Assembly (NCBI GenBank): GCA_022539475.1
Contig: VCMS01000078.1
Coordinates: 1-64,000, forward strand
Direction of reading: 5' to 3'
From: Gracilaria domingensis
Taxonomy: Eukaryota; Rhodophyta; Florideophyceae; Gracilariales; Gracilariaceae
Length of the DNA stretch: 64,000 bases
Shown here: positions 1 to 28,784 of the stretch, piece by piece
Layout: each line of letters starts with the position of its first letter
Position numbering within the stretch: the stretch's first letter is position 1
Notes under the pieces: generated by a model
The model's input: the letters and a program-made list of their open reading frames with translations, nothing else
What the model was told of the DNA's origin: nothing
The model's database searches: none
Position numbers and translations under genes: made by a program

Positions 1-1030
1 AGCGACGCCAGACTCATATCCACGTCATCCGAAGGTAATTCATCACCTTCGTCGAATAGTTCATTGACGTTTCCAGCCAAGCTCTCCTTCACCAAGGCAA
101 CGTCATCATCATCCACTTCATCCACATCCACAACTTCCATTCTAGCTCCACTGCGACTCCCAGCCATTGCAATCGCTTCAGCAGGGCTATTTCTTGACGA
201 CCCAGACTGCACATTCATCGCTGGCTGCTTCCGTAATGCAGAGACCGCACTCTCTGGAGTTGTGGTCAATTGTGCAGTTCCTACTTTGTACCACCATGGT
301 CTTGCTTAGATGGAGCTTTAGGAACAGGCCTAGGCGCTGGGGGCGGTACTTCCTTCCCCCTTTGTTCTTCTGTTGTTGGCCTGGTGTTTTGGTCTGGGCT
401 ACCTGAGGTGGCAACCGCTTCCCACTCGGTGTACGCGGGTGTTTCGGTGTTTCCACCATACGCACTCGTTTCCCTCCTGTCGTGGATGCCGCATTGGTAT
501 GCCCTGATTTCTTACTGGGCACCTGCGGCGTGGTGTTCTGAACGGTCTCACCTGAAGCCATGAAGTTCAAGTCCCGCGCATAGAAACCCATCTTGTTTAA
601 GTCCGCATGGTCTTCGGAATGGAGTCTTCATCCGTACACTTAAAGGATACGGGTACGGTGTATGGAGCTCCTTCGATACATCAGCTCGCCATATACCGAC
701 TATATCCTCTCCCGGCTTCCCTTCCAGTGTGTGACCATGCATTTCTCTTCGATAGTCTTTGCCGTCGCCAGCACACTCGATGGCCACCACATCAGCCGTG
801 CCAATTGGGACCTTGTCCCCTCCATTCCCCGCGATAAGAAGCGTCACTTTGTCCCCCGGTGCGGGTTTCGCTTTCCCCGGGTTAGAGCTTATACTCTTCT
901 CCGGATTCTGTGCTTCCTCACTACTCTTCTTCCCTCCTTCTTTTGTCTTCTTCGCACTTCAAGATGCGGCGTCATGGGGGTTGCGAACTTTCCGCGGGTT
1001 TCGGGAGCGCCTCATCTGCCGGTCCCCAAT
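1..1030 (-). pseudogene. degenerate hypothetical coding region, open at left edge
   Basis: On the minus strand several protein-like stretches follow each other in different frames. A Gly/Asp-rich segment reads from about 1030 to 548. A Pro/Lys/Gln-rich stretch covers about 590-310. A further frame (about 295 to 1) begins PWWYKVGTAQ and turns into an acidic Asp/Glu/Val-rich tail that runs off the left edge without a stop. No single frame spans the region and stops separate the pieces, so this is either a decayed gene or one with unrecognised introns. No family was recognised. The basic and acidic low-complexity composition resembles a nuclear or transposon-associated protein, but that is only an impression. 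Confidence 0.25.
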
Positions 1031-1050
1031 CCTCTTGGCTCCATTATATA

Positions 1051-1345
1051 GCGTGTTCGATTTAGCTTCGTCAAACACCTATAAAGGTTGAATGCAGAAC
1101 AAAGCGGTAGTCGTATAATGCTCTGATCACGTCAGCAAACGGCGCACCCGCTCGGTTTGAACACGGTACACGCTTCGCTGTCGGTTGAAGTGTCGCACCC
1201 GTTCGTATCGCATATTTGTATTGCAGCACGCGGAAAGGCTCCCGTGAACATTCGCATCACTTTAAAAGAGTGGTATAGGCGGTTAGGGATGGTGTAGAAG
1301 GCTTAGATGCATACCAGGCAGCATGATCAACCCCCACGGTTCCCC
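1051..1345. other. intergenic, no feature seen
   Basis: No reading frame, repeat or RNA-like structure was recognised between the degenerate coding region and the inverted-repeat element to its right. Confidence 0.4.
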
Positions 1346-1367
1346 CCTGGTACTCTCCTGTGGTGGC

Positions 1368-1497
1368 CGGATGCGACGTGTTCAGGCCGCGGTCTGGACC
1401 GCAGTCAGCCGAATTCATAGCCTAGATCATGACCATGATCTCGGCTATGAACGCGGCTGACTGCGGTCCAGACCGCGGCCTGAACACGTCGCATCCG
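1368..1497. repeat. long palindrome with perfect 44-bp arms
   Basis: Positions 1368-1411 are the exact reverse complement of 1454-1497. The 42-base centre is itself partly symmetrical: TTCATAGCC pairs with GGCTATGAA, and GATCATGACCATGATC sits in the middle. Transcribed or extruded, it would form a very stable hairpin. It duplicates the terminal sequence of the surrounding inverted-repeat element in both orientations. Confidence 0.9.
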
Positions 1498-2535
1498 TCT
1501 ACCCCGCCACCCTACGGGGGGTGGGAAAGCAGGTTGTAGGGTACAACGTAGAGCTGAGTAGAGCTACGCAGAGCACATTTGTCGTTTCACATCGCAGTTT
1601 ATACGTATCTACATAGAGGCAAGAAACAATTTCGCGCGGATTTGGTTTAATCGATGTTCAGTTTGAATGCCGAAGAGCAGAGCCATTCGAGAATGAGGGT
1701 AGTGGTGGCAGCACCAATCGCAATTGTACGGGTATTATGGTCATGGCTGTTTGTCGTGAAAGCAGTCTCAGAGGGACCCTCATCACGTTCAGTGGCGGGC
1801 GGCGACTGTACAGATCGTGTCATTGACGTTTTATGCTCTTGGTGTGGGTGCGAAGATGTTTGTTGGCGCTGCATCATCAACACGGTGTGAGCCAGAAAGT
1901 GCAATTCACGCAATATGCGCTAGCTCGTATCAAACTGAGCCCCTGAGACAGAAATTCAGCCCGGCGGTGGGTGTGTAGCGCAGTCATTAGGCATACCGAG
2001 ATCAGCAGCTGCGGCCACGGCGGCTGCATTCGTCAAGGCAGCGCTATTATGGGTGTTTGCGCCTTGCGACGGTCGTCTTCATTACGTGAAAGGCGCGGCG
2101 GACGCCTGGCGAAAAGGAATGTGAGCACTGTAAAACGTCATGCTCGTTACTACATTGGAATTACCAGTACGGGGATAGGAAAGACCTAAGCTGCATGTTG
2201 TTCCGGACGCTCTTGTTGTTGAGTGCGACGGATGCGGTGGTCGAATATTGCGATGACGATGGCGTCTGGACGCCTTGCGCCTGCGCAATGCAACCGCTCT
2301 TTGGGTATGCGTCGGCGTTGGAGCGCAAGCGGCGAGGGTAGAGGCGGAGAGCGTACAGCAGATTTGTATGCAGCCGTATGATGGAGGCTATGATGATGAT
2401 GCAGATAATGATGTGGGGGGAGCGGGTCGGTGTCGGAGAACGGCGATTCTGAGTCGTATAGGACCATATCTCATCTGCCCCATGCGCGCTACAACCCTCT
2501 CTACACGTGGCCTGATACCTGGTTCCACAGTCTCT

Positions 2536-2580
2536 AGACCGCGGTCCAGACCGCGGTCTGAACACGTCGCATCCGGCCGC
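2536..2580. repeat. third copy of the CCGCGGTC/GTTCAG... terminal block
   Basis: This stretch repeats the right arm of the 1368-1497 palindrome (CCAGACCGCGG then CTGAACACGTCGCATCCG) with few differences and is followed by GGCCGCCAGGGGG. It lies about 260 bp upstream of the start of the methyltransferase/SET gene. Confidence 0.8.
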
Positions 2581-2840
2581 CAGGGGGTCACTACTAGGTG
2601 ATTCTACACAAGTCTGCGTACTACACCCGCTCTTGCAACCCTGTTCATACCCTCCTGCGTACGACTAACACCCGCTCAAATACGAATTTAGAATAACGTT
2701 TCATCACCGCCGTCTACTACTCTTTCGAGAACTCCTCCAGCGAGTTTCATCGCCACCGTCTATTCCGCTTTCGCGAGTTCTTGCGAGAGTTACATGGCGC
2801 CCGTCGAAACAGAACCCTCTATGGTCTTAACAGCAGAGCG

Positions 2841-5800
2841 ATGTCGACTACCGCATCTTCCGTGGCATCTACGGAGTCTAGCTCCGATGAGAAGGATATT
2901 ATGGCGACGCGGTTCCTTCGTTTGTTCAGCATACTTCTCGAGCTGAGAGACTCGTTTGCGGCGTCTCGAGGCTGCATTGGTTCCCCTCGTCAGGTTGGAT
3001 ACACGGCTCTCGTTGAGTACTTGTCGCAAACCGTGCCAGTCTGGCTTGTGCACGGGAATTTCTCACGGATGTTACGAAGAGCACGTACGCAAACTATACG
3101 CCGCAGGAGCTGGTGAAGATAAGTACCGATGTTAGGTTCATAAGTCGGTCTGGAAGTATGTCCGTATCATTGACGTGGTTGACTAGAGTGCGGATCGTCG
3201 GGTGAGGGATCTTTTCGAATGGAGTTTGGATAAGAATGTGGATGGCGGGAATTCTTCTATGGAGCGTGTGTTCTGGAATGACTTACTCAAAGAGCATGGT
3301 CCCGGATCCAAGCAGACGAAGAAAACTACCTTCCGGATTGAGCCTTCTACTCGTTTTCAGCAGTTGCTTTATCTATCCCTAGTGAAGCATATCACTATGG
3401 AGAGGCGACTCCCAGTTGCGAAGAAGGCGAGGACTGCAACTGGTTCTCGGAGACAGGTGCCGTTTGTTGATGGTTTCGTCATGTCAAACCAAGCGCACAT
3501 AAGGCGGATGGGTTATGCTGTGCAAATGGTATGTCTAGGATGGATTTCTTTGCTTCCAGTCTTGGATGTCGTGACGCCGAACAAATGCTGTTACCGTTTG
3601 TTGGCCGTGGAGAAAGCGACGCTTTCTTTCGGCGCAATTGAGTCCCGTTCTTCCGGATACAGCCCAGCATCGGTGTTCAAACATTGGGGAACGAAGTGAA
3701 GCCAACCACAGAGGTCAACGCTACTGTGCCTTGGTTCACACCCTTTCGGATGATATCGATACCAAACTAAGAGAATTGTCAAAAGAGTTCCTGTCCGATT
3801 TGAACAAGGTTGTCTTAACAGATTTCTGTACAAAATGTCCGCTACTACCAAGTGGGAACTGCTGGAAGGCTTTCGAAGGAAACTTCAAACACATTTTCTA
3901 TCTCGTTTTGATGCTTTCTCCGATGAGTATTTGGCTACTCTTCGTACCGCTATTGTCCAGCTGAACCTGAGACCTTCCCAGCAGCCATCCCGGGCCACTC
4001 TGTCAGGACGTCAGGAAGGGAGCAACACGGTCACAGTGAAGATTGAAGATACGGTTACGGCACAGAGAACCATTTCCTTGCGGCCAAGGGCTAGGGCGGT
4101 GGGTAAAACATCCGGTAAAAAATCCAGTGCAGACCCGGGTCCGGTAGATTTCATTGTCATAGACGACACGGATGAAGACGACGATGGAGCGCACCCCCTT
4201 TCTAATGTTCCTGATGATATTATTCCACCTCACGACTTTGGCGATGTAAGGACGACGAAGGCTCTCGGTGTGGTCAAAAGGAACATGGAGCAACAGTTCT
4301 CTATGCATTGCGTTGGTCATGAAGAGTTAGTGGAGGCTCATGGTACACTGTTCCCTTCCGATAATTCCCTAGAGGGCAATGTTCAACTCGTACTCACGGA
4401 CCCACCTTATGGTATACGTGACAGTGAGCATGATGAGCTTCTCGACGAAGATATGGTTAATACTGCAGAAATGATGGCCTCAATGCTTTGCCCTGGCGGT
4501 CATTTTATAATGTTCTGTACTATCGAACAGTTCGCGGACTGGGAGGAGATTCTACGTGAGCACAAATCGGAGAATGCACTGGGGAGGCAAAGTGCTTCGT
4601 TCTTAGTCGACCCCACACCGATGCAATTCATTCGCTCTCGTACGCATACTTTGAAGAACCCGGAAGGAACACAACACGGTTGTTCTCTGCAACCGAGTAT
4701 GCCGTGCACGGAGTCCGGAATGGAAACGCGTACGAAGAGCAGAAAGTGATGGTGAACTACAAAAATTTCAACTACGTTCCCACGCAGTACCCCGAGCGTT
4801 ACTCTATTATCAATCAGGTTCCGCATCTGGAGGCTGGTGAAGGACTCCGTTGGAGGGTAAAGAAGCGTTCCAAAATACACTCGGTTCAGGTTCGCCCCGA
4901 CCAGAAACCGAGGGCACTGCTAAAGGAAGTCATTGCCAGGTTCTCAAATCCTGGGGGCGTTGTGGTTGATCCCTATAGTGGAAAATTTTCCGGTGCCTTG
5001 GAGTGCATGAACATGGAAGAGCCCCGACGCTTCATTGGATTTGAGAGGGATGAGCAGTGCTTCGCTCATACTGAACACAATGCTGTAGTGATGTATGCGA
5101 GGAAGGTTTGGGGTAACGAGTTCAACGCAAGAATAACTGTCAGTAATGAGGTCGTTCAAGCCTCGTATTTAGTACAGACAAAGTTACTGGAAGGGAAGCA
5201 AAGAACCTCGCGTATATGGACCGCACCGAAAGGATTCCCGCCATACCAATGTTTTTCGTTTCATATCAATTCCCACATCGCAACTTTTTGCAGAGAACGG
5301 AGTCTCATCGCGCAGCACAAGGAGAAACCTGTGCACGAGTGGCCTCTGAATCTCCAAGGCACATTGGAGACGATGGATGTACAGAGTTTGCTCGCCGCTG
5401 AAGCAGCAGGTTTATGGTTTTACAGGAAGAAATCAAACATCAAACACCCCATAAGTGGAGATGGAGTGTTCAGTAGTAGATCGTTCTCGGAAGGAGAGGT
5501 TGTCGGGTACTTCCATGGGACATTGGTATATCATGACATAAGCCGACGCAAGGCAACACAGATGAAATACGGAAGCGGAGTGCTCGGTGCCACCGTTTCT
5601 CGTTTCAGGGGTATTGAATGGAAGTGAAGCTGTAAGGGCAGATGTACAGCACGCTTCCTGACTACGATTCCGAAATCAATACTGCGATTGCATGGGTAGT
5701 ACCAGCTCTTTTCTGTATAGCGGGCTACATCAATGATGCTTCGTACCGGGATGGGGACGAAGAGAAGGATTTGGCCGAGATGGAGCCTTACCAAGGCCGC

Positions 5801-5965
5801 TTACCAAACGTTATTATTCGACAGCCTTCCGAGCATCAAGCTACCACATTGGGTACACTCGCAAGCTATAGACTACTGTTGGTGACGGCTACAAGGGATA
5901 TTCATGAACACGACGAACTGTACGTAGACTATGGACCCAGCTATCCATGGGAGAGGTATTTGTAA
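2841..5965 (+). pseudogene. DNA methyltransferase (beta class) fused to SET domain, frameshifted
   Basis: The sequence shows an ATG at 2841 followed by protein-like segments in changing frames, then two recognisable domains. From 3835 one frame carries the amino-methyltransferase motif IV, DPPYG (4399-4413), followed by a PGGH segment (about 4490). Near 4660-4690 the frame changes to one with ATEYAVHG, and motif I appears as DPYSGKFSGALE (from 4968), a variant of the usual DPFxGxG. Motif IV before motif I is the beta-class order of CcrM/HinfI-type N6-adenine or N4-cytosine enzymes. From about 5455 a SET domain starts (GDGVFSSRSFSEGE). After another frame change it ends with the IND and ELYVDYG motifs (5735-5940). 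In-frame TAGs lie at 3133 and 3184. The encoded enzyme would be expected to methylate DNA and a histone lysine; this copy is probably inactive unless introns or recoding repair it. Its neighbours suggest a transposon gene. Confidence 0.65.
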
Positions 5966-6513
5966 CTCTCCCATGCTTTATAGTTTGACGTAGTACAAAC
6001 TGTTGTAGTGTATTTCATAACTACTGCGTCATTTATTGAATGCATTCATCATTCCAGTAAACCTATTGTTGCAGGAATCGACAACGTGGCACAAGGACAC
6101 ATTGTCGTGCTAAGCAAAGAGCTACTAAGAATACTCCACAGCGGTCAGAGCTACCACCTCAAAAGCAACCCTTCAGAACTAACACCTCACACCCGGGAGG
6201 TTGGACCAAGGAGCAGAGGACCTTCATCATGAAGGGACCCGACAGACGGACCTGGCACATAGAACATAGCCAGTGAAAAATACGGCCATGGGAAATGTGG
6301 AAAATTGGTATGAATGTCTGCCACAAGAATGGACCAGCTCACTCAGGGCTCAAGAACCACTGAAGGTCTCCATCACCTGCTGCAAGGTTTCACAAGCTTC
6401 CGCTCTTCCGCTTTTTCACCCCACACTACGAGCAGGACTCCAGAAGCTTCCGTTTCCGCACTCTATAATCCGAACATAATCCCTTCCTTTTCACACGATT
6501 TTGAAGCGCAATC

Positions 6514-9028
6514 ATGGCTCCACAAAAGCCCAGCAACGCGGACGACCGGGAGACGAAGGGATCCCAAACAATCCCGCGATATGGTATTGGCATCGCTAAG
6601 CGCAAGAACCCTCCGCCTGCCGCGACCCGGAGAAGTACTCGACGACGAGCTCCTCGTGTCGGGCTTACTGGAAAGGAGTCTGGTTCGAAGTCAGCACTCC
6701 GGGATTCGAAGGCAAAACCGAAACCGAAGCTGGGTGTTAGTACGACCACAACGGAAGTGACAGAGAGCGAAGTAGTTTTACCACATCACAGTTCAGTGGA
6801 GGGCGGGTTACACGACACATGGCTGCAGAGGAAGTGCCAAGAATAATCGATGATGCGAATTTGGAAGAGAATGGTGCCGAGAGACGTACGAGAGCGAAAG
6901 GAACACGGACAAGAAATTTGAGAAACAATGTCATCGAAGAAGAGTTGGACAGACATGAAAGAGCAATCTCACCTGGTAGGACGAGGGGCATTACCAACGA
7001 TTTCATTCAACCTCTACGTAGTAAGGACGAAGAAGAAGCCGATGATATACAGCCCAATGTACATGCGCTCGCAACATCGCGAAGGGAGATAAAAAATCGG
7101 AAGGATTCTCTTCATGCCGATCGTGCTGGTGACGAGGAAGAAGTCGATAACATACAGTCCTCTGTACGTGTGCCCGCACCGTCGAGGAAGAGTTTCCGGA
7201 ATGGAAACGATTCTATTCATCCTGAACGTCGTACGAACGAGGAAGAAGTCGACGAGATACAGCCTGCTCCTCGTACGGTCGTACCATCGCAGAATAGGTT
7301 CAACCAAATGAGAAGGAAGGGTTCGACCTCGATTTCCTTTGGCGAGATGCGTAGGGAACGGACAGAGGTGGGGTCAGAATTACCAAGAGAGACATGGAAC
7401 GAAAGGGGTCGTAATGTGGCAGGTCGCCGGAAAATTAACCGTACGCTTCTATCTCGTGCTCTTGCTGGTGTAGAAGAAGAAGGTGAAGAAGATGAAAGCC
7501 TAACGCCACGCTACGAGCTCTTGGACAAGATTGGAGACTTGAAAGCGGATCTCTTTCGAGTAACCGAGGATAATCAAAGTCTGAAGATGAGCGTAAGAAT
7601 AGCACGGAAAAGCGTGACGGAACTAGAGCTAAAGGTGAAGGAGCAAGATGTTCTAATACAATCACTTCGAGAGGCACTGAAGCGAGGAGCAACACGGAGG
7701 GAGCGTGATTCGCACACGGTAAGGAAAAGATACGAGATTGGTGTGAACGACGCGTATGTAGGGGTTGCGAAGACAGTATACGAGTCCATACTGCGATACG
7801 CGAAAGACGAGACGAGGGAATTGTGCTTCGAGATGATTTCACCCCGAGAAACTGAGGGAATCGAAGTGAGACACTCGGACCTGAGACTGAGTACAGTGTC
7901 CTGGTCGTTGATGGGAAAGAGATTGTTCCACGCTGTCCAATGGAGGTTGCGATGGAGATGAGAGCGTATACTCCATCGAGTCGTGGTACGGGTCATAGCT
8001 TGCTGATGCAAATCGTGGAGACGGAGGTAATGAAACCTCGTTGGGAATCCGTCCGGGAGATGAAGATGGAAGAAGACTGCATCAGACAGCTGACCAGCGA
8101 CATGTGCTTACGGAAGAGGTTGAAGCAGGCCTTGAGCGATGCGGTGGGGGTTCGAAAACGCCATGCGAAGGAGAAGTTGTTGATGAGGCTAGGGTATGAC
8201 ATGTTGGTGAAGACACCATCTCATGAGAGGGAGAGGAGCATGTACCTAAAACAAGCGGAGGAACTACGGGAGAAGCTTCTGCCGCTAGATGCAAAAGAGT
8301 GTGAGGTTCTCTCCAGATGGAGAACATCCAAAAGAGAGGACATATCATTTTCCGGGTTCAAAATCCGTGGCGAAGAGAACAAGCCGCAAGACTTGCTGTT
8401 TAGAAACGTTCTAAGCCTATAGGTATTACGGGAGTTTCTGGGTTACGATGTGAACCAAAAGGATTCGAGAAATGCGGGAAACAAGAACTCAGTGGATGGC
8501 ACAATAGTGCAGTTGGCGCGTCTAGACGCTTGGATCGCGTCAGTTGTTCGCGCTACAGAGTTTGAAGGAGGGAGGGGCGGTAAAAGGCAAGTGTTGTTCT
8601 CCAACCTTTTCGGAAAGTAAGTTGCACAGGCGTTGGAAGGTATACTGATGGCTGTACGAATGAAAATGGAGCAGAAGTTTGGAACGGAGTTCAGGAACGA
8701 CTCAATGGCTCAAGTTCCACCCCATGAAAATGATGACCGTGTGGGAACTGTGGCATACTGGATACCGTCTAAGAAGAAGCTATATCTAGCTGTTCGGGAA
8801 GATGTATTCATGGAAGAGATTACGGAACATCATGGAGCCGTATTGGATTGCTATATTGGATATTGTGACCCACGGGATCGCGTATACTTCCCTATAAGAG
8901 CAATCGATGAAATCCAAGATAATGATGTGATCGATTGTAATCCGAATGTCTGGGAACAAAGTAGGGAACGAGACGGGGGAGGCGTGGACGATGAGCACGA
9001 GATGGAAGACGAGGAGGAGAATATCTAA
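6514..9028 (+). pseudogene. coiled-coil, repeat-containing transposon-associated protein
   Basis: Protein-like sequence runs through 6514-6843, 6819-7961, 7940-8422 and on to 9028, with frame changes near 6820 and 7880 and in-frame stops at 8420 (TAG) and 8612 (TAA). The start is basic and Pro/Ser-rich. From 7018 to 7310 three copies of a unit of about 38 residues follow each other, each with an EEE-x-D-x-IQ core. A long charged helix with heptad spacing follows at about 7500-7700 (LLDKIGDLKADLFRV onward), then a folded-looking segment (EYSVLVVDGKEIVPR, about 7880). The C-terminal part (8633-9028) is acidic at its end. No family was recognised. It lies between the methyltransferase/SET gene and the convergent transposase, so it may be an accessory protein of the same element. 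The lesions suggest a dead copy. Confidence 0.45.
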
Positions 9029-9170
9029 AGTACATGAACAGTTTATGTTAAGATTGTTACGTAGTACGAGTATGATGAATGTGGGCTCGAGGGTTACGAT
9101 AGAATCTGTTAATGTAGAAACGATGGAATTGCCAGTGAAGGGGAGGGAAAAATGGACGGGCAGCGTAGTT

Positions 9171-12100
9171 TTAGCGAATGACCTGTATGGAGCCTTTGAT
9201 TGAGGAGAACGGGATAAGCACGAACCAAGGAGAGACCGTAGCAGAACGAGGTTTCATCCTTGACGTACTTGGATGCACGGTGTGATCATGCTCATCGTCG
9301 GTGGCCCAACGGAGTGATATACAGTTCAGAGTTTCATCAACGTTATCCAAGGGCTCCGTCACTTCAAAGAAACGAACGAAAGCGAGATCCAATTCAGAGT
9401 TGTTCCTGACGCGAAGCAATGCAAATACTTTGCATACCCACGCTGTGGAAAACGTACAGTTGGGAGGGAGTGTTCCGTGCACGAGAACCGTGGAGAACTT
9501 AGGCAACCTGGAAGGTCCGAAGGAGGTCGTAGCGAAGATGAGTTCACACAGTTGTACATCCAGCTTTCTCAATCTTATGCATCGAAGATCCCGATCGTAA
9601 TCATCGAGGGAGGGGCACAAGCCGCTAAGAACGTATGCAGAGTTAACAGCAGTGAATTTGATGTGTGAGGGTTCTTCAGCTGTTGAATGGTTTCTACACA
9701 AAGGGTGCGGAAGGAGGTGAGAGCGTCGAGAGATATTTGGTTGATGAACTGCAGTGTGGTTGCCGAGAAAAGTTCTGCCAGAGCCGAAGAAGATACATGT
9801 GGATGCGATCGTAGGTACTTGTCAGCTGTGATGATGTCAAAGAGTGAGAAGAAGTTACCATCGAGAACCATGGCCGGAAAGCGGTTGATGGAAGGGCTGC
9901 GAGAGTTGGGGGAGACAGAGAAATGACTTTCGACCGAAAGGGATTGCAAATAGTCCTGCGACTCTTGAATGGCGTTCACCGTTTCCTTATGAGCTGTAGT
10001 TCGCCTTCGAGAAGTTCGACGATAGTGGTTCTCGAAGAGAAGATGAGCATGTTCGTACACGCCTGCATTGCCGAAATGCAGGCCTCCGTATCGCCGTATG
10101 TCTGGAATGATGTGGTCAGGGAGGTGGAACTTAAGAGTACGAAAGTTGGAGGCTTGGTGCAGGCCGAGAATGGAGACTGTGTGAAACTTGAAGATTTTAT
10201 CATAGTTTCCAACGCATCTAAGCGATGCTCCGTCCATTCTGGAGTGGTATTGTAACGAAGGACGTTGTCGACGAGGTCAACGTAGGATGTGAACACGGTG
10301 GTAATAGAGGCGGAGGATTTCTCACCACAACAGCGGTCAAAGAAAGCGGCAATGAAAGGGAAGAACATATCAAGGGAATGGTAGTCCTTGGCTTCCAACA
10401 TACCCCTGATGCCGTCTGTCGTGAAGAAACCGTTGAGAGAATTTCCTGTTTCGGATGTGGAGAAGTCGATGTGAAGTCCGGATGCCAGATAGGAGCGCTC
10501 AATGTCGGCGAGAATTGCGTTGGCGTGGCTGAGAATAGAAGTTCGAACGGTCTTGAAAGACCTCGGGTTTCCCTGAGAACCAACAGAAGTGTGAAGCGAA
10601 TCGGACTTGAGGCGTTCAATCGAGGCGAGTTTGATGAGTTTTGACATTCCGAGATGAAAGTTATGAAGGGACTCGAAGGAGAAGATTGAGTAAGGAGTGA
10701 GCAGCTCGGAGACATTGAGCATAGGGAATCATTCGAGAAAGGACTTGTAAGTGGATAAGGAGGTGGTTTGGAGTAGTTCAACAGCTTCATTTCTCAGGGT
10801 CCTTGCCACTCGAAGTCTGCGGGAGAGCAGAGCCTGTTCAGCGCCGGTAAGTAGATCTTGTTGTTTCTTTCTCGTTGCAGAGGCGTGGGATACAGTTCGC
10901 TCATTGAGAATGGCTTGATAGACGTTGAGTTGTGAACGAGGGATAAGGCATCTGTGACAGGGCTTGTTTGGTTTCGTGCCGTGGAGGACAGCGAGAATGT
11001 CCTTTGCTTCGGGAATGTCAGCGCTAAAGTTAGCGATGATGGGATGGCACTGACGAAGGACTCCCTTGGCGTCTCTGAAGGGAAAGCCTTTTTTGCATAT
11101 GTCGTACAGAGGTTTGAGTATAGTTTCCAAGGACTTCTGGAAGAGCTCCATGCGCACAACGCGAGTTATGTTCGACGAAAAGGGGCCAATTTCCAAAGAA
11201 TCGGTGTCGGTGGAGGAAGAATCGGGGGAGAAGGATGTAAAGGAAGTACGAATGTAGCCGACGAGAGTGTGGTGGTGTGTGATACATTTTCTGCGGAAAG
11301 AGTCCTTGAAGTTGAGAAACGTAATATGGAGGGGGTATGATGTGACAGAGGAGCTTTTTAGCGTGGTGGAGGACTTATCGGAGTAGAGTTGAAGCATGCC
11401 GATGAAAACGTCTATACCAGTAGTGGTGGGATCATGCCAGATGACTCCTGGGTTTGGAAAATGTGCGATGTGCTTTTTCAGAGCGGGAACGACGTCATGT
11501 CCGAGTTTGGAGGCCATGGGATGCGCAAATGCGTCGGTTCCTGTGCGGGAGGCGTGGTGAATTGGGTGAAAGAAGGCGTTCTCATGGGATGCTAGCCGAA
11601 GTTGTTGTTGAAGGACTTGAATGGGGTCCTTGACGTAGAGGGTGGCAGAAAACTGACGGTCGTTATCGTGAATGGTGGTGGAGGTGAAGCCAATGGAGCT
11701 CACGGTCTCTCTTCAAAGATTTTGGAGTGTAGTTTGAGACACTCAGAAGCGGAGGTGATGGGGGTTTGGAGAAGAGAAGGGGGAAAGTTGGACTGCCTGA
11801 GAATGTTGATAACCTCGTCTGCGTTTCGTGGCGATGGAGGAAATGTATGTGACGAGATTTTGAATGTTATCAGTTGGAGCGGGTGGAGAGAGGGCATGAC
11901 CGGAACCTACGTAGAGGGACTGAGAATTGAATGGGTGTTGTGGTGTAGCGTCAGAAGAACGTATGGAGAGAGCGAGCTGCTGTTCTTCATACGGTTCGTC
12001 AGTGGCGAGTGCGACATTATCGGAGGGGCGGTTGGAGGGAGAAGAGAGAGGGGGTTTGGTACTGCTGAGTCGGCGACGTTTCGTTCGGGCGGGGGGAAGA

Positions 12101-12225
12101 GGGAACCGCGGAGGCCTGCAGGAGTGAGAAAAGGGTTTGGGCCATTCCAGTGCCTGCAACGTTTCTAATGTTGTGCGAGGGAGGCGATAGAGTCTGTGTG
12201 AAACGTACAGAAGGGGAAGCAACAT
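9171..12225 (-). pseudogene. Plavaka-like transposase (KDZ/CACTA-related), broken
   Basis: Reading from 12225 (ATG) toward 9171, the frames together give a protein with the landmarks of Plavaka transposases. An N-terminal Ser/Pro-rich part is followed by a frame change around 11740. A core segment (11703-10732) includes DKSSTTL, SYPLHITFLNFK, HTLVGYIRT and a zinc-binding stretch ending KPCHRCLIPR. After one in-frame TGA (10729), a second core segment has PYSIFSFESLHNFHLGMSK. A frame change near 10170-10230 leads to FHLPDHIIPDIRRYG and YEHAHLLFENHYRRTSRR, and another near 9600 leads to a C-terminal part with the VHGTLPPNCTF segment. The family would catalyse cut-and-paste transposition. The accumulated lesions point to an inactive copy. 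It converges on the plus-strand coiled-coil gene. Confidence 0.6.
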
Positions 12226-12600
12226 ATGTACATGATGCAGTAGGGCGGGGAGGGGGGGAGCGGAGGTCTAAGGTGCAGTGTTGCAACTTGTAGGAAATTG
12301 TTGCCGTACCGTGTGGGGGAGAATATAAGGAGAGTCGAATCGGCGCTATGCACGTGATGGTTTACGTACATCACGATAGGAGATGGGTACGTCGAGGAGG
12401 GACGGAATTGGGAAAAACTGAAAACATTCCTAAATTTTTGAGCCCATACTTTGCGGCCGGCGTGAACTCTACACTAGACGTAGTTAGTGCTGCACTAGAG
12501 AAGTCAAAAAAGTGCCATGGCACGGGCCTGACCAGTGCGATGCGAGCTCTGATCATGGCACTTCTCTGCGACACATTATCTTCCAGATCATGCGAGTTCC
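12226..12600. other. intergenic, small dyads only
   Basis: This is the upstream side of the transposase gene. A GTGCCATGG...GATCATGGCAC imperfect dyad lies around 12510-12560. No coding signal was recognised. Confidence 0.4.
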
Positions 12601-14179: not shown

Positions 14180-17100
14180 CTAGCATTTCGGAACTAGCAT
14201 TTTTGGACTGCTAACTAGCAAAACGAGAACACAGACGTTAACCAAAAAGGGAACCTTCGGTCTGCAGTCCATAATTCTATTAGCCATTAAGGAAAGGTGA
14301 CGCTTAATCGTCTTCGGATGGTTCTGAGGCTTCAACAGACCAGCGGTTTTGCAGTGAGCCAGAGCGGTAATCTGCGTCATGGGCGAGATCGTTATCGCCC
14401 GTGACAACCGAACCTTAGTGGAAATGGTATTCTTCGCCGACGGAGGGCGACGTGGGTTGGCGTCGGGACCGGATTTGGATCCGATAATCGCCACTGGAGA
14501 GGTGCGGTGGAAGGAAACCTTCCGGAGCGCGAGGTAGATTGCCTTCACGTATCAGTCGATGAAAGACGTCCCAAGGAGACATTCGGCACCTAAAGTGGGA
14601 CAAACAAGGAACTAAGTACGGACCCGAAGGTCGCCAATCTGTAAGCAGAGAGGAATGATTCCTTTAATACCCATTGGTCGTTTTGATGCATCAGGTACCC
14701 TTGGAGTCCTTCTAACCTTCACCTCGTCCTCCCAGCCAGCCGATGAAACCTTTGGATGGACCAAGTTTGGCCCTTCTCTAGTGTCCAGGACGCTGGTAAC
14801 GACCCGTGACCTTGAGGCAGTTAAACCAATGGTGCGTCTTACTTTGTAATTCTCCTTCCGTATGATACATAATGGAGAATCCGCTTCACTGTCTAGTTCG
14901 TCACATTATTTTGCGAAACTTCTGTCTTCCTTTGGTGGCATCGACGGTTGAGTCCCCGAAGGCTTCTGAAATTCGCTTGGACAAATTTCTTCACCTTCGG
15001 CGATGAGGCTAAAATCCTGAGAGGGGCGCCGCGCCTCAAGCCCTCTACGAGTTTCCCGACTGAGTTTTTCCACCGGTGGTGTACGCGTGACCACTGGCCT
15101 GCACTTCTTCTGGAACAGCCGTCGGGTGTTCTGAGATTGCATCATCCCCTGGATTCGAAACTGGATAAACTTTTGGAGCCTTGACCGGCGTTTCCAATGG
15201 TGTGGCGTACCTCGACGTGCCAAGGGACGACGTATACTGCGGAGCCTGACGGGTGAACATTCCATCGGATCGCCGTGCCCGGTAGTTCTCGTTCCTTAAG
15301 GCCATGAGTTTGTCCTTCGTTTCCTTCGGTAAGAACTTCTTGCGATTGCATGGAGTAATCGTTGACAGGCAAATATAGCATGTCTGACGGGAGCTTTGGG
15401 AGACATCCCTTCGAGGTTGGATCGGAAAATACTTCGGTGTAGACTGTTCAGAAGAAGTTGTTATTCCAGTCGACGGTACGGAGGGCGCGACTGAGTGAGC
15501 TGAACTAAAGCAAACTGCAAGAACGTTTCCCTCGTTCTCGTAGAAACCTGAGGCACTGCTTTCCGAACTCTCAACCATATGGGCCTGGGAGATTTTCCGG
15601 ACAGGTGTCGCTCTTCCTCTGCCGTCATTATCAGGTGACCGGCGGGAATTTCTATAGGTTTTACCGTAACCTTCGGCATAATGTACCAACTGCCTATAGG
15701 AGAGGTTGGAACGGTCCATATCGTGATTTCGAACGTGCGTCCTAATGGCAGGCAGCAATCCAGCGATGAAATGCTGCTTCAGCCGGGTCTCGGAGAACAA
15801 ATTCCAAAACCTATAGGCCTTTCTCCAAAGCTGGTCGGCGTAATCTTTCTCGGCTACGTTCGAACCTTGCCTGTAGGATATGACTTCCTGATAGGCGTCC
15901 ATAATGACGTCATCCGTTGCATATGTTTCCAAACGGTAGTAAACAACCTCCTAATAGGACCTAAGATTTTCCTGATCGGTTGCATCGACGGGGTCCGTAG
16001 TTCCAGAGATTTTAGAGACCACATGGTCGTGCGCTTTCCCATGGAGGAAAAACTGAAAAAGATACAGAGCGGCACCCTCGTGGACGCCGTTCTGATCACA
16101 GGCCGTGCGGATCAGACTGAGAAACATAAGGATAGAAATGGGGTCGGATCCCGAAAATTTTTCCGTTATGGTTAGCTGCATCCGTTTGGCCCATCTAGAG
16201 ATCTTTTCGGCCACCGAGCTAAAGTGTCGCGCAGACCGGTCAGGCTGCCGATACGTGCGGTAATCGAGTACTCTCTTGATGAGTTCATTGGTTGTTACCC
16301 ACCGCTTGAGGCGTCGAACGACCGCCTCATCCGTCTTTGAGCCACTGAAACTAGACGAATCCGAATCGGACTCGCTACCGCTGGAGTTCCTCCGGCTTTT
16401 TCTCTGGTTCTTCGACTTCTTCCTTCTGCTACTTCTCTTCTTCCTACGCTCAGAACTTCTAGCTTCCAATGGCGGCTCTTCATCTTCAGCCTCTAAACCA
16501 ATGGATGCTCGGAGGCCCTGGGCCCCGGTGTATCTCGCGGGTGGCACGGCCATTAAGCCTTCTTGCCGAGGGACCACTCTATTGTCCCTTGGACGTGCGC
16601 TCGATTGGTCTGCCTGTGGTTGAACCTGGCGAGGGGCTGGCAAAAGCAGCTGCTCCCGGTGGCTCGGAACGGGGTTGCCATACAGATACCAATAGATTAC
16701 TTTGAATTCCACCCACGGAGGGCTGCAGGCCTACCCGGCGAGTCACCTCACGGCGGTTACCTAAGGCAAGCGAGTCGACGAAAGCGTCGGACTCGAGAAC
16801 CTTTGGAAGGACATGTTCAGCCAGTTGGTCGGCGTGCTCTGCGAGAGCGACAGAGACTCGGAGATCCACAAGGGTTTCGAGTCGAGCGTCAAGCATATCT
16901 CGAACCCTTGGCCATAAGACATCGGCAAGTCTATCAGTTGTTACGGAACCAATGGTTTCCTGCGGTGCTGCCTGTTGTGTGTTGAGTTACGAGCGGTCCT
17001 CGTCGAGCTGTTCTCGGAGTTTTCCGGCCAAAGAGAAGTCACAGTTAATCCGCTTGGGATTATCCACTGGTGTGAGCAGATTAACCTGTGGCTGCGAGCA

Positions 17101-22791: not shown

Positions 22792-23069
22792 GGCCCCCGG
22801 AGAACCTACGCACCGTACCGGTCGTATACGGAGGCCCCAGAACCTCCCCTGATATGAAAGAAATTACAGAGGATCCTCCCTAGAACATGGAGGCTCTTCC
22901 AGATCCTCTCTCACCATTGAGGGCGTGCCAAGTCAGTAGCAGTCGGTAGATCCTCTGTGGCTCACAACCTTATTGGTTCTACACAAAATCTCCCGCGGTG
23001 ACCAACAACACGGCTCCCACCGCGTGACATCTTCTACCTAGCCGCCAAGCCGTCACTGCGCGCGCTTTT
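22792..23069 (+). repeat. left terminal inverted repeat of MULE
   Basis: 278 bp that match, inverted, positions 28507-28784 with almost no differences; one is at the third base of the end. The outer tip is GGCCCCCGGAGAACC. Confidence 0.93.
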
Positions 23070-28506: not shown

Positions 28507-28784
28507 AAAAGCGCGCGCAGTGACGGCTTGGCGGCTAGGTAGAAGATGTCACGCGGTGGGAGCCGTGTTGTTGGTCACCGCGGGAGATTTTGTGTAGAAC
28601 CAATAAGGTTGTGAGCCACAGAGGATCTACCGACTGCTACTGACTTGGCACGCCCTCAATGGTGAGAGAGGATCTGGAAGAGCCTCCATGTTCTAGGGAG
28701 GATCCTCTGTAATTTCTTTCATATCAGGGGAGGTTCTGGGGCCTCCGTATACGACCGGTACGGTGCGTAGGTTCTCCGGGGCCC
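28507..28784 (-). repeat. right terminal inverted repeat of MULE
   Basis: Inverted partner of 22792-23069, the same length with no visible indel, followed at once by the second GTTATCGTA. Confidence 0.93.

Follow-up and report, generated by a model that had tools for sequence, protein, structure and literature searches.

A predicted DNA amino-methyltransferase joined to a SET domain in the genes of a Plavaka-type transposon from the red alga Gracilaria domingensis

What kind of protein is encoded by a gene-sized stretch of DNA in the red alga Gracilaria domingensis that carries the signatures of a bacterial DNA methyltransferase and, directly behind them, those of a protein-lysine methyltransferase? 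The stretch in question, to which we refer as open reading frame (ORF) 1, occupies positions 2841 to 5965 on the forward strand of the 64,000 nucleotides that we analyzed (the window), which form the start of contig VCMS01000078.1 (C78). An initial annotation had taken it for a transposon-linked fusion of a beta-class N6-adenine/N4-cytosine DNA methyltransferase with a SET domain. All the motifs on which this reading was built are present on the forward strand: DPPY (4399) and the motif I sequence DPYSGKFSG (4968) within an N6_N4_Mtase domain (Pfam PF01555; 4381 to 5063), and GDGVF (5457), GYINDA and ELYVDYG (from 5915) within a SET domain (Pfam PF00856; 5427 to 5935). The gene does lie on a single strand as had been proposed, but it does not form a single open frame; the ORF list and tblastn place it in three frames (about 2841-4749, 4560-5627 and 5636-5965). 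When searched against Pfam, the piece 4560-5624 matched the second half of the N6_N4_Mtase domain (E 2.4e-10), the piece containing DPPY matched the same family weakly (E 0.095), and the last piece matched SET with an E-value of only 0.015. A predicted structure of the piece 4560-5624 had a mean pLDDT (predicted local distance difference test) score of 29.8 and was not used. Taken alone, the domain evidence from the window copy is thus suggestive and no proof, and the question of a fusion had to be settled with uninterrupted relatives from the alga's own genome.

We therefore turned to the assembly from which the window derives (77.9 Mb in 680 contigs), where the middle ORF1 piece has 117 matches. 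These fall into a subfamily A (about 70-97% identity to the window), a subfamily B (about 61-65%), a subfamily C (about 35%), a lone copy D on contig C6 (37%), together with a small number of broken copies (44-58%). Single, uninterrupted frames carrying both domains above the Pfam cut-offs exist among them: a 1,121-residue A copy (L010; N6_N4_Mtase 3.6e-14, SET 1e-4), a 1,055-residue C copy (L027; N6_N4_Mtase 3.6e-15, SET 1.4e-7, 32.3 bits) and a 634-residue frame of the D copy (L024; N6_N4_Mtase 4.6e-20, SET 8e-6, 26.7 bits against a cut-off of 22.4). A B copy truncated within its SET part (L021) matched the methyltransferase profile (2e-12) and gave no SET match, while a full-length B copy (L018) retains the SET motifs in the alignment. 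Three further places on contig C382, known by profile coordinates only, have both profiles in the same phase within frames of 1,169-1,170 residues. Uninterrupted frames measure 1,035-1,121 residues in A, B and C and reach 1,170 residues when the C382 copies are included. The methyltransferase profile scored 48-73 bits in four of four ORF1 proteins (cut-off 26.7), and in the A, C and D relatives the SET profile is above its cut-off and accompanied by the G.G and ELxxDY motifs. Throughout the aligned copies DPPY (DPPF in subfamily C) precedes motif I, the order that the initial annotation had pointed out, and the ORF1 motifs are retained although copies share as little as 32-45% identity. A search with the C protein yielded 46 genome matches, most of them at 91-100% identity, nine of which extend over the full 1,055 residues with no stop codon. 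Collectively, these conceptual translations show that the predicted ORF1 protein combines three parts in a single chain: an N-terminal region, a beta-class amino-methyltransferase of bacterial type and, at the C-terminus, a SET domain. Subfamilies A to D all retain this fusion, and so, judged from profile coordinates alone, do the C382 copies. The profile searches that had been suggested hence support both domains, and the uninterrupted relatives hold them fused in frame rather than as separate genes; the fusion proposed for the gene family of the window is confirmed at the level of its sequences.

A Pfam profile scan of the whole genome gave the same picture. Among the 150 SET places listed, 76 have a methyltransferase place immediately upstream on the same strand, separated in at least 68 of these pairs by a gap of 385-396 nucleotides; 49 of the 76 pairs share one frame and the other 27 do not, and among the listed SET places no pair with reversed order or opposite strands was found. 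The eight strong SET matches lack such a partner and presumably represent host genes. The list of SET frames from the genome includes many short ones (253, 252, 304 and 231 residues, for example). We considered an amplified SET-only derivative as their source and dropped this idea, since the two copies that we read, on contigs C330 and C137 and both of the 253-residue kind, keep the methyltransferase just upstream.

Why is the window copy itself broken? Window positions 61-9946 differ from positions 160600-170500 of contig C132 by 19 one-base insertions or deletions, nine of them inside 2841-5965, and by no substitution at all, while other A copies diverge from the window by about 6-9%. Sixteen of the 19 differences are located at runs of at least three identical bases, and in 17 a base is missing in the window. 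Differences of this kind, without substitutions and mostly at homopolymer runs, are the signature of consensus errors. The end of C132 and the start of C78 thus probably represent one locus that was assembled twice, and many of the frame breaks in the window are likely to be consensus errors and not decay. That the window copy is a decayed pseudogene is doubtful, as it differs from C132 by insertions and deletions only. Errors of this type may break many genes in the assembly.

Comparison of coding sequences between subfamilies indicates that both enzyme domains have been maintained. Between an A copy (A157) and a B copy (B12), the SET part has 0.168 nonsynonymous substitutions per site (dN) and 1.50 synonymous ones (dS), a dN/dS ratio of 0.11; the methyltransferase part has a dN of 0.170 with dS saturated; and the N-terminal part has a dN of 0.37 with a ratio of 0.17. 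Fewer SET codons could be compared in two other A-B pairs, which gave concordant ratios (0.14 and 0.13). These values show purifying selection on both domains between A and B, and we infer that selection maintained both of them in the lineage of active elements. For four pairs of copies from the same subfamily (A or B), the whole-gene dN/dS is 0.69-1.06 and that of the methyltransferase part alone 0.38-0.75, as expected of copies that drift after their insertion. Four C pairs gave ratios of 0.28-0.51 from very few changes.

The methyltransferase part is best described as a divergent relative of the beta-class N6-adenine/N4-cytosine DNA methyltransferases, with a predicted activity. The top-scoring PHROG is that of a phage DNA methyltransferase (E 3e-25 to 4e-23). 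Matches in phages comprise 23 records, all from Staphylococcus phages, of which the 15 that are listed have 25-27% identity; among viral contigs, none of 30 pattern matches was confirmed. In bacterial genomes, 20 of 92 pattern matches proved to be relatives of the methyltransferase. No more than 65 residues follow the matched stretch in any of these 20, so that no SET domain is fused there, and an ELxxDY-type pattern is absent from all 20 frames. The nearest solved structures are DpnA, CcrM and MboIIA, mostly N6-adenine enzymes, and the nearest named NCBI families are likewise mostly adenine enzymes, although at 20-41 bits they remain far below their cut-offs. Because of these affinities and the DPPY motif, N6-methyladenine is the likelier predicted product, rather than N4-methylcytosine. 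The comparison with the bacterial-type N4-cytosine methyltransferase captured by rotifers, drawn in the initial annotation, is therefore apt as an idea and less so with respect to the predicted mark.

ORF1 resides in a transposon, as had been suspected. Homology between the window and a copy on contig C157 ends at window position 14237 with ...GAACACAGACG, and this end constitutes a right terminal inverted repeat of 27 bp (14211 to 14237, reverse strand) that reads from its outer end inwards CGTCTGTGTTCTCGTTTTGCTAGTTAG, followed by TT; the same sequence is present at the left ends of other copies. The homology of two C copies ends with ...GAGACAGACG. The 20 outermost bases of the A end are found at 125 places with at most three mismatches (13 for a reversed control), and those of the C end at 581 places (3 for the reversed control). 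Left and right A ends have the 27-bp repeat in common and differ in sequence further inward. The spacing between ends and genes was determined with 100 listed A ends and hand-picked genes (46 of the 150 listed ORF4 places and 24 ORF1 copies; ORF4 is the leftmost gene described below). Among the ORF4-to-left-end distances below 9 kb, 18 of 25 are 5.60-5.72 kb, and nine of the 11 ORF1 copies that have a right end inside 12 kb are 8.3-9.1 kb away from it. By coordinates, the window's own element copy starts at C132:154433, ends at C78:14237, measures about 20.3 kb and is flanked by TT on either side; the window carries its right-hand 14.2 kb, and the left part is found on contig C132. Equal 2-bp flanks are present in four of seven two-ended stretches (C37, GT; C184, GT; C21, CA; window/C132, TT). 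The flanks are unequal in C106, C122 and C128, of which C106 has two right-type ends and hence no proper pair; for these seven stretches, gene content is established for the window's copy alone.

From left to right, the element carries ORF4 (reverse strand), the methyltransferase-SET gene ORF1 (forward), ORF2 (forward) and a transposase gene (reverse). Of 146 merged ORF1 copies, at least 59 have a divergent ORF4 within 8 kb, at least 32 a convergent Plavaka transposase within 9 kb, and at least 12 have both; with the ORF1 strands flipped as a control, the corresponding numbers are 0, 1 and 0. The counts are lower bounds, as the ORF4 and transposase lists favor different subfamilies. The transposase gene of the window (9072 to 12267; tblastn 11906-9072, N-terminal limit from the ORF list) is broken in the assembly and matches Pfam PF18759 with an E-value of 2.4e-20 and 73.5 bits (cut-off 26.3), or 78.8 bits with one TGA. 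This profile has 123 matches in the genome and none in 14 control genomes, a weak control since those named are prokaryotes. Plavaka elements belong to the CMCT group of DNA transposons, and their transposases feature D, D, C(2)C, H(3-4)H and E in this order (PMC12730594). In the transposases of a B copy (B399) and a C copy (C192), DKSS, ADIPEA, CHRC, HLLDH and YEH follow each other in the pattern D, D, C(2)C, H(3)H, E, where the choice of the catalytic D and E residues is our own reading. The target duplication is given as 2 bp, and as 2-3 bp for PlavakaB (PMC12730594). The ends of the algal element (CGTCTGT..ACAGACG) are neither of the PlavakaA (TGT..ACA) nor of the PlavakaB (CATCA..TGATG) type described there, and the element is thus Plavaka-related and stands outside these two lineages. 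Judged from ends, genes and transposase motifs, the window holds part of a four-gene Plavaka-type DNA transposon of about 20 kb with 27-bp terminal inverted repeats. The C type is abundant genome-wide, with its 581 terminus places and with 21 uninterrupted transposase frames of 1,100 residues in the Plavaka list; the C subfamily appears to have undergone a recent burst.

The other genes of the element are less readily assigned. ORF4 begins at the left edge of the window (1 to 1030, reverse strand; tblastn with the C140 copy, 1030-3), and its remainder lies beyond the contig start. The C140 copy matches the window in four pieces with 41-72% identity; the family is distributed genome-wide and includes an uninterrupted relative of 1,326 residues (L035). 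By eye, ORF4 contains a DGAHR/DGLHR motif that looks ParB-like, and a C-terminal pattern HTD...GRGDV[FT]HAGA...R that resembles those of Fe/2-oxoglutarate dioxygenases. Both patterns are conserved between B and C copies (L035:104-4081 and L055). Searches against Pfam, NCBIfam, PHROGs and PDB gave no backing for either assignment, the nearest Pfam hint over the ParB-like stretch being GmrSD_N (E 0.19, below the cut-off). Between ORF4 and ORF1 lies a near-perfect palindrome (1380 to 1500), with inverted repeats at the matching place in the A157, B399 and C164 copies according to self-matches; it could be a promoter or regulatory site for the divergent genes. ORF2 (6514 to 9028, forward strand; tblastn 6801-7859 and 7847-8860) is likewise broken in the assembly. 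It forms open frames of 918-953 residues in B relatives and has 67 genome matches; a coiled-coil-like part, with weak Pfam matches below the cut-off only, is combined with a conserved part of no named family. No Pfam family scored above its cut-off in ORF2, and the best PDB match had an E-value of 0.74. In B copies, a 435-residue ORF with membrane-like stretches by eye (L034:1107-2411) is situated to the left of ORF4; it has no Pfam match and is possibly a fifth gene of the element.

Two further observations concern DNA beyond the element. Inverted repeats of about 275 bp (22795-23069 and 28507-28781; 100% identity, rounded) are positioned 5.4 kb apart in the window and are perhaps the ends of another mobile element. 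Phycobilisome linkers occur at 14 places in the genome, four of them on contig C680 (three in one frame of 878 residues) and the others on eight contigs; C680 looks plastid-like to us. Such a distribution agrees with a red-algal host, and would agree with other eukaryotes that possess phycobilisomes as well.

What might a transposon gain from such a protein? In the reading that we favor, and to which we attach moderate confidence on sequence grounds, the element produces a dual writer that marks its own copies, which are thereby kept expressed and competent for transposition. The methyltransferase half would place N6-methyladenine on element DNA (N4-methylcytosine being less likely), and the SET half would methylate lysines of element proteins or of histones close by; jointly, the two marks would keep element copies expressed and able to transpose, or would time transposition. 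More tentatively still, given motifs spotted by eye, the divergent ORF4 might be a partner that reads or removes the marks. A complete epigenetic kit, in which a writer of DNA and protein-lysine marks is complemented by a divergent, mark-removing dioxygenase with a ParB-like domain so that the element controls its chromatin state independent of the host, we regard as a doubtful extension.

Several observations weigh against the dual-writer reading. In the motif I loop, another residue takes the place of the second glycine: the sequence is GTF in the majority of rows from A, B and C, GTS in D, and GKF in the window as well as in its twin L009, so that the canonical loop pattern (FxGxG), found in 16 of the 20 bacterial relatives, is not matched by the ORF1 methyltransferase. 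The named NCBI adenine families score 25-41 bits where their own cut-offs are 292 and 830. On the SET side, the NHS motif reads NDA in the alignment rows that reach this site, Pfam reported no pre-SET or post-SET family in the ORF1 proteins, and the SET domain of the A relative is barely above its cut-off (23.1 versus 22.4 bits). The altered glycine and the NDA sequence make a weakened or changed chemistry possible. Furthermore, many ORF1 copies are broken; the C copies on C330 and C137 each have their own single-base loss in a GGG run between methyltransferase and SET, which may reflect decay or an error; double assembly of a locus raises the copy counts; and 74 of the 150 listed SET places lack a listed methyltransferase upstream. 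The last number arises in part because the SET and the methyltransferase places listed number 150 each; contig C419, for instance, has a full 1,055-residue frame although its methyltransferase is absent from the latter.

The same chemistry could also serve the opposite end. In a form of self-silencing or copy-number control, the fusion would write repressive marks, on DNA and on histones, at the element's own copies, or would methylate the ends and thereby limit the timing of transposition. The chemistry would be identical to that of a writer supporting expression, and the bacterial-type N4-cytosine methyltransferase of rotifers works with repressive chromatin (PMC8885841). Selection between subfamilies and the recent expansion of C, however, fit a benefit to the element at least equally well, and we consider self-silencing a possibility of rather low probability. 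Alternatively, the SET domain may act on a non-histone protein, such as the element's transposase or the ORF2 protein, while the methyltransferase acts on DNA, and the joint between them would assemble a transposition complex. SET enzymes with non-histone protein substrates are known, and the closest solved SET structures are weak and mixed (KMT2A, E 0.001; SETD8, also known as KMT5A, E 0.034), the first match being too weak for a substrate to be named from it. The data do not indicate any particular substrate, however, and this proposal seems unlikely to us. It is more unlikely yet that one or both domains are catalytically lost and serve as DNA-binding or scaffold modules. The altered motif I loop and the NDA sequence would agree with such a loss, but DPP[YF], the G.GVF start and the ELY.[DN]YG-type end of the domains are retained across very divergent copies, and in the A-B comparison both domains show less protein-level change (dN 0.17) than the N-terminal part does (0.37). 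An accidental fusion, through decay that joined neighboring genes, through chance open frames or through misassembly, would account for the three frames of the window copy and the out-of-frame pairs, but is hardly credible and in effect ruled out by the single-frame relatives, the in-frame pair counts and purifying selection.

How does the dual writer proposed here relate to systems already described? Fungal Plavaka elements and other fungal DNA transposons that encode TET/JBP proteins (Kojima, 2025; PMC12730594) likewise place an enzyme for epigenetic marks beside a Plavaka-type transposase. Theirs is a 5-methylcytosine dioxygenase, for which an escape from silencing was proposed (PMC12730594), whereas the red-algal element encodes a methyltransferase-SET fusion and differs in its ends, as noted above. 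The HarbingerS and MuDR DNA transposons of Phytophthora also carry a SET methyltransferase; they belong to other transposase superfamilies, and the portion of PMC12730594 drawn on here mentions no DNA methyltransferase fusion in them. Retrotransposons may possess their own DNA methyltransferases, namely DIRS elements with Dam-type enzymes and LINE, DIRS and Gypsy elements with DNMTs, and for one group a Ka/Ks below 0.2 was given (PMC5890265); these are Dam or C5 enzymes, and in the corresponding part of that report no SET fusion is mentioned. Like ORF1, the N4-cytosine methyltransferase of bdelloid rotifers is a bacterial amino-methyltransferase that a eukaryote acquired and that is linked to a chromatin domain (PMC8885841). 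It is, however, a host gene that combines N4-methylcytosine formation with a chromodomain, a reader, instead of a SET writer, and the text of that source covered here does not present it as part of a transposon. In the giant repeats of Amoebidium, a Plavaka transposase flanks large, intron-poor gene clusters (PMC11244446). These clusters carry tyrosine recombinases, which have matches in red algae, and the part of the article considered makes no mention of a methyltransferase-SET protein.

No report of a methyltransferase-SET fusion in a transposon was found in the open-licence papers searched, Repbase Reports not being among them. Transposons that carry SET genes, DNA methyltransferases or demethylating enzymes are known already, and what appears to be new here is the combination of methyltransferase and SET in one chain. 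If the proposed function is correct, a single protein that writes both DNA and protein marks would directly couple two epigenetic layers for the benefit of a mobile element. Whether N6-methyladenine plays an informational role in eukaryotes is disputed, and the genome of G. domingensis contains recent, near-identical copies of the element; a dual writer of this kind would offer a natural, separable tool for asking whether DNA amino-methylation carries information in a eukaryote.

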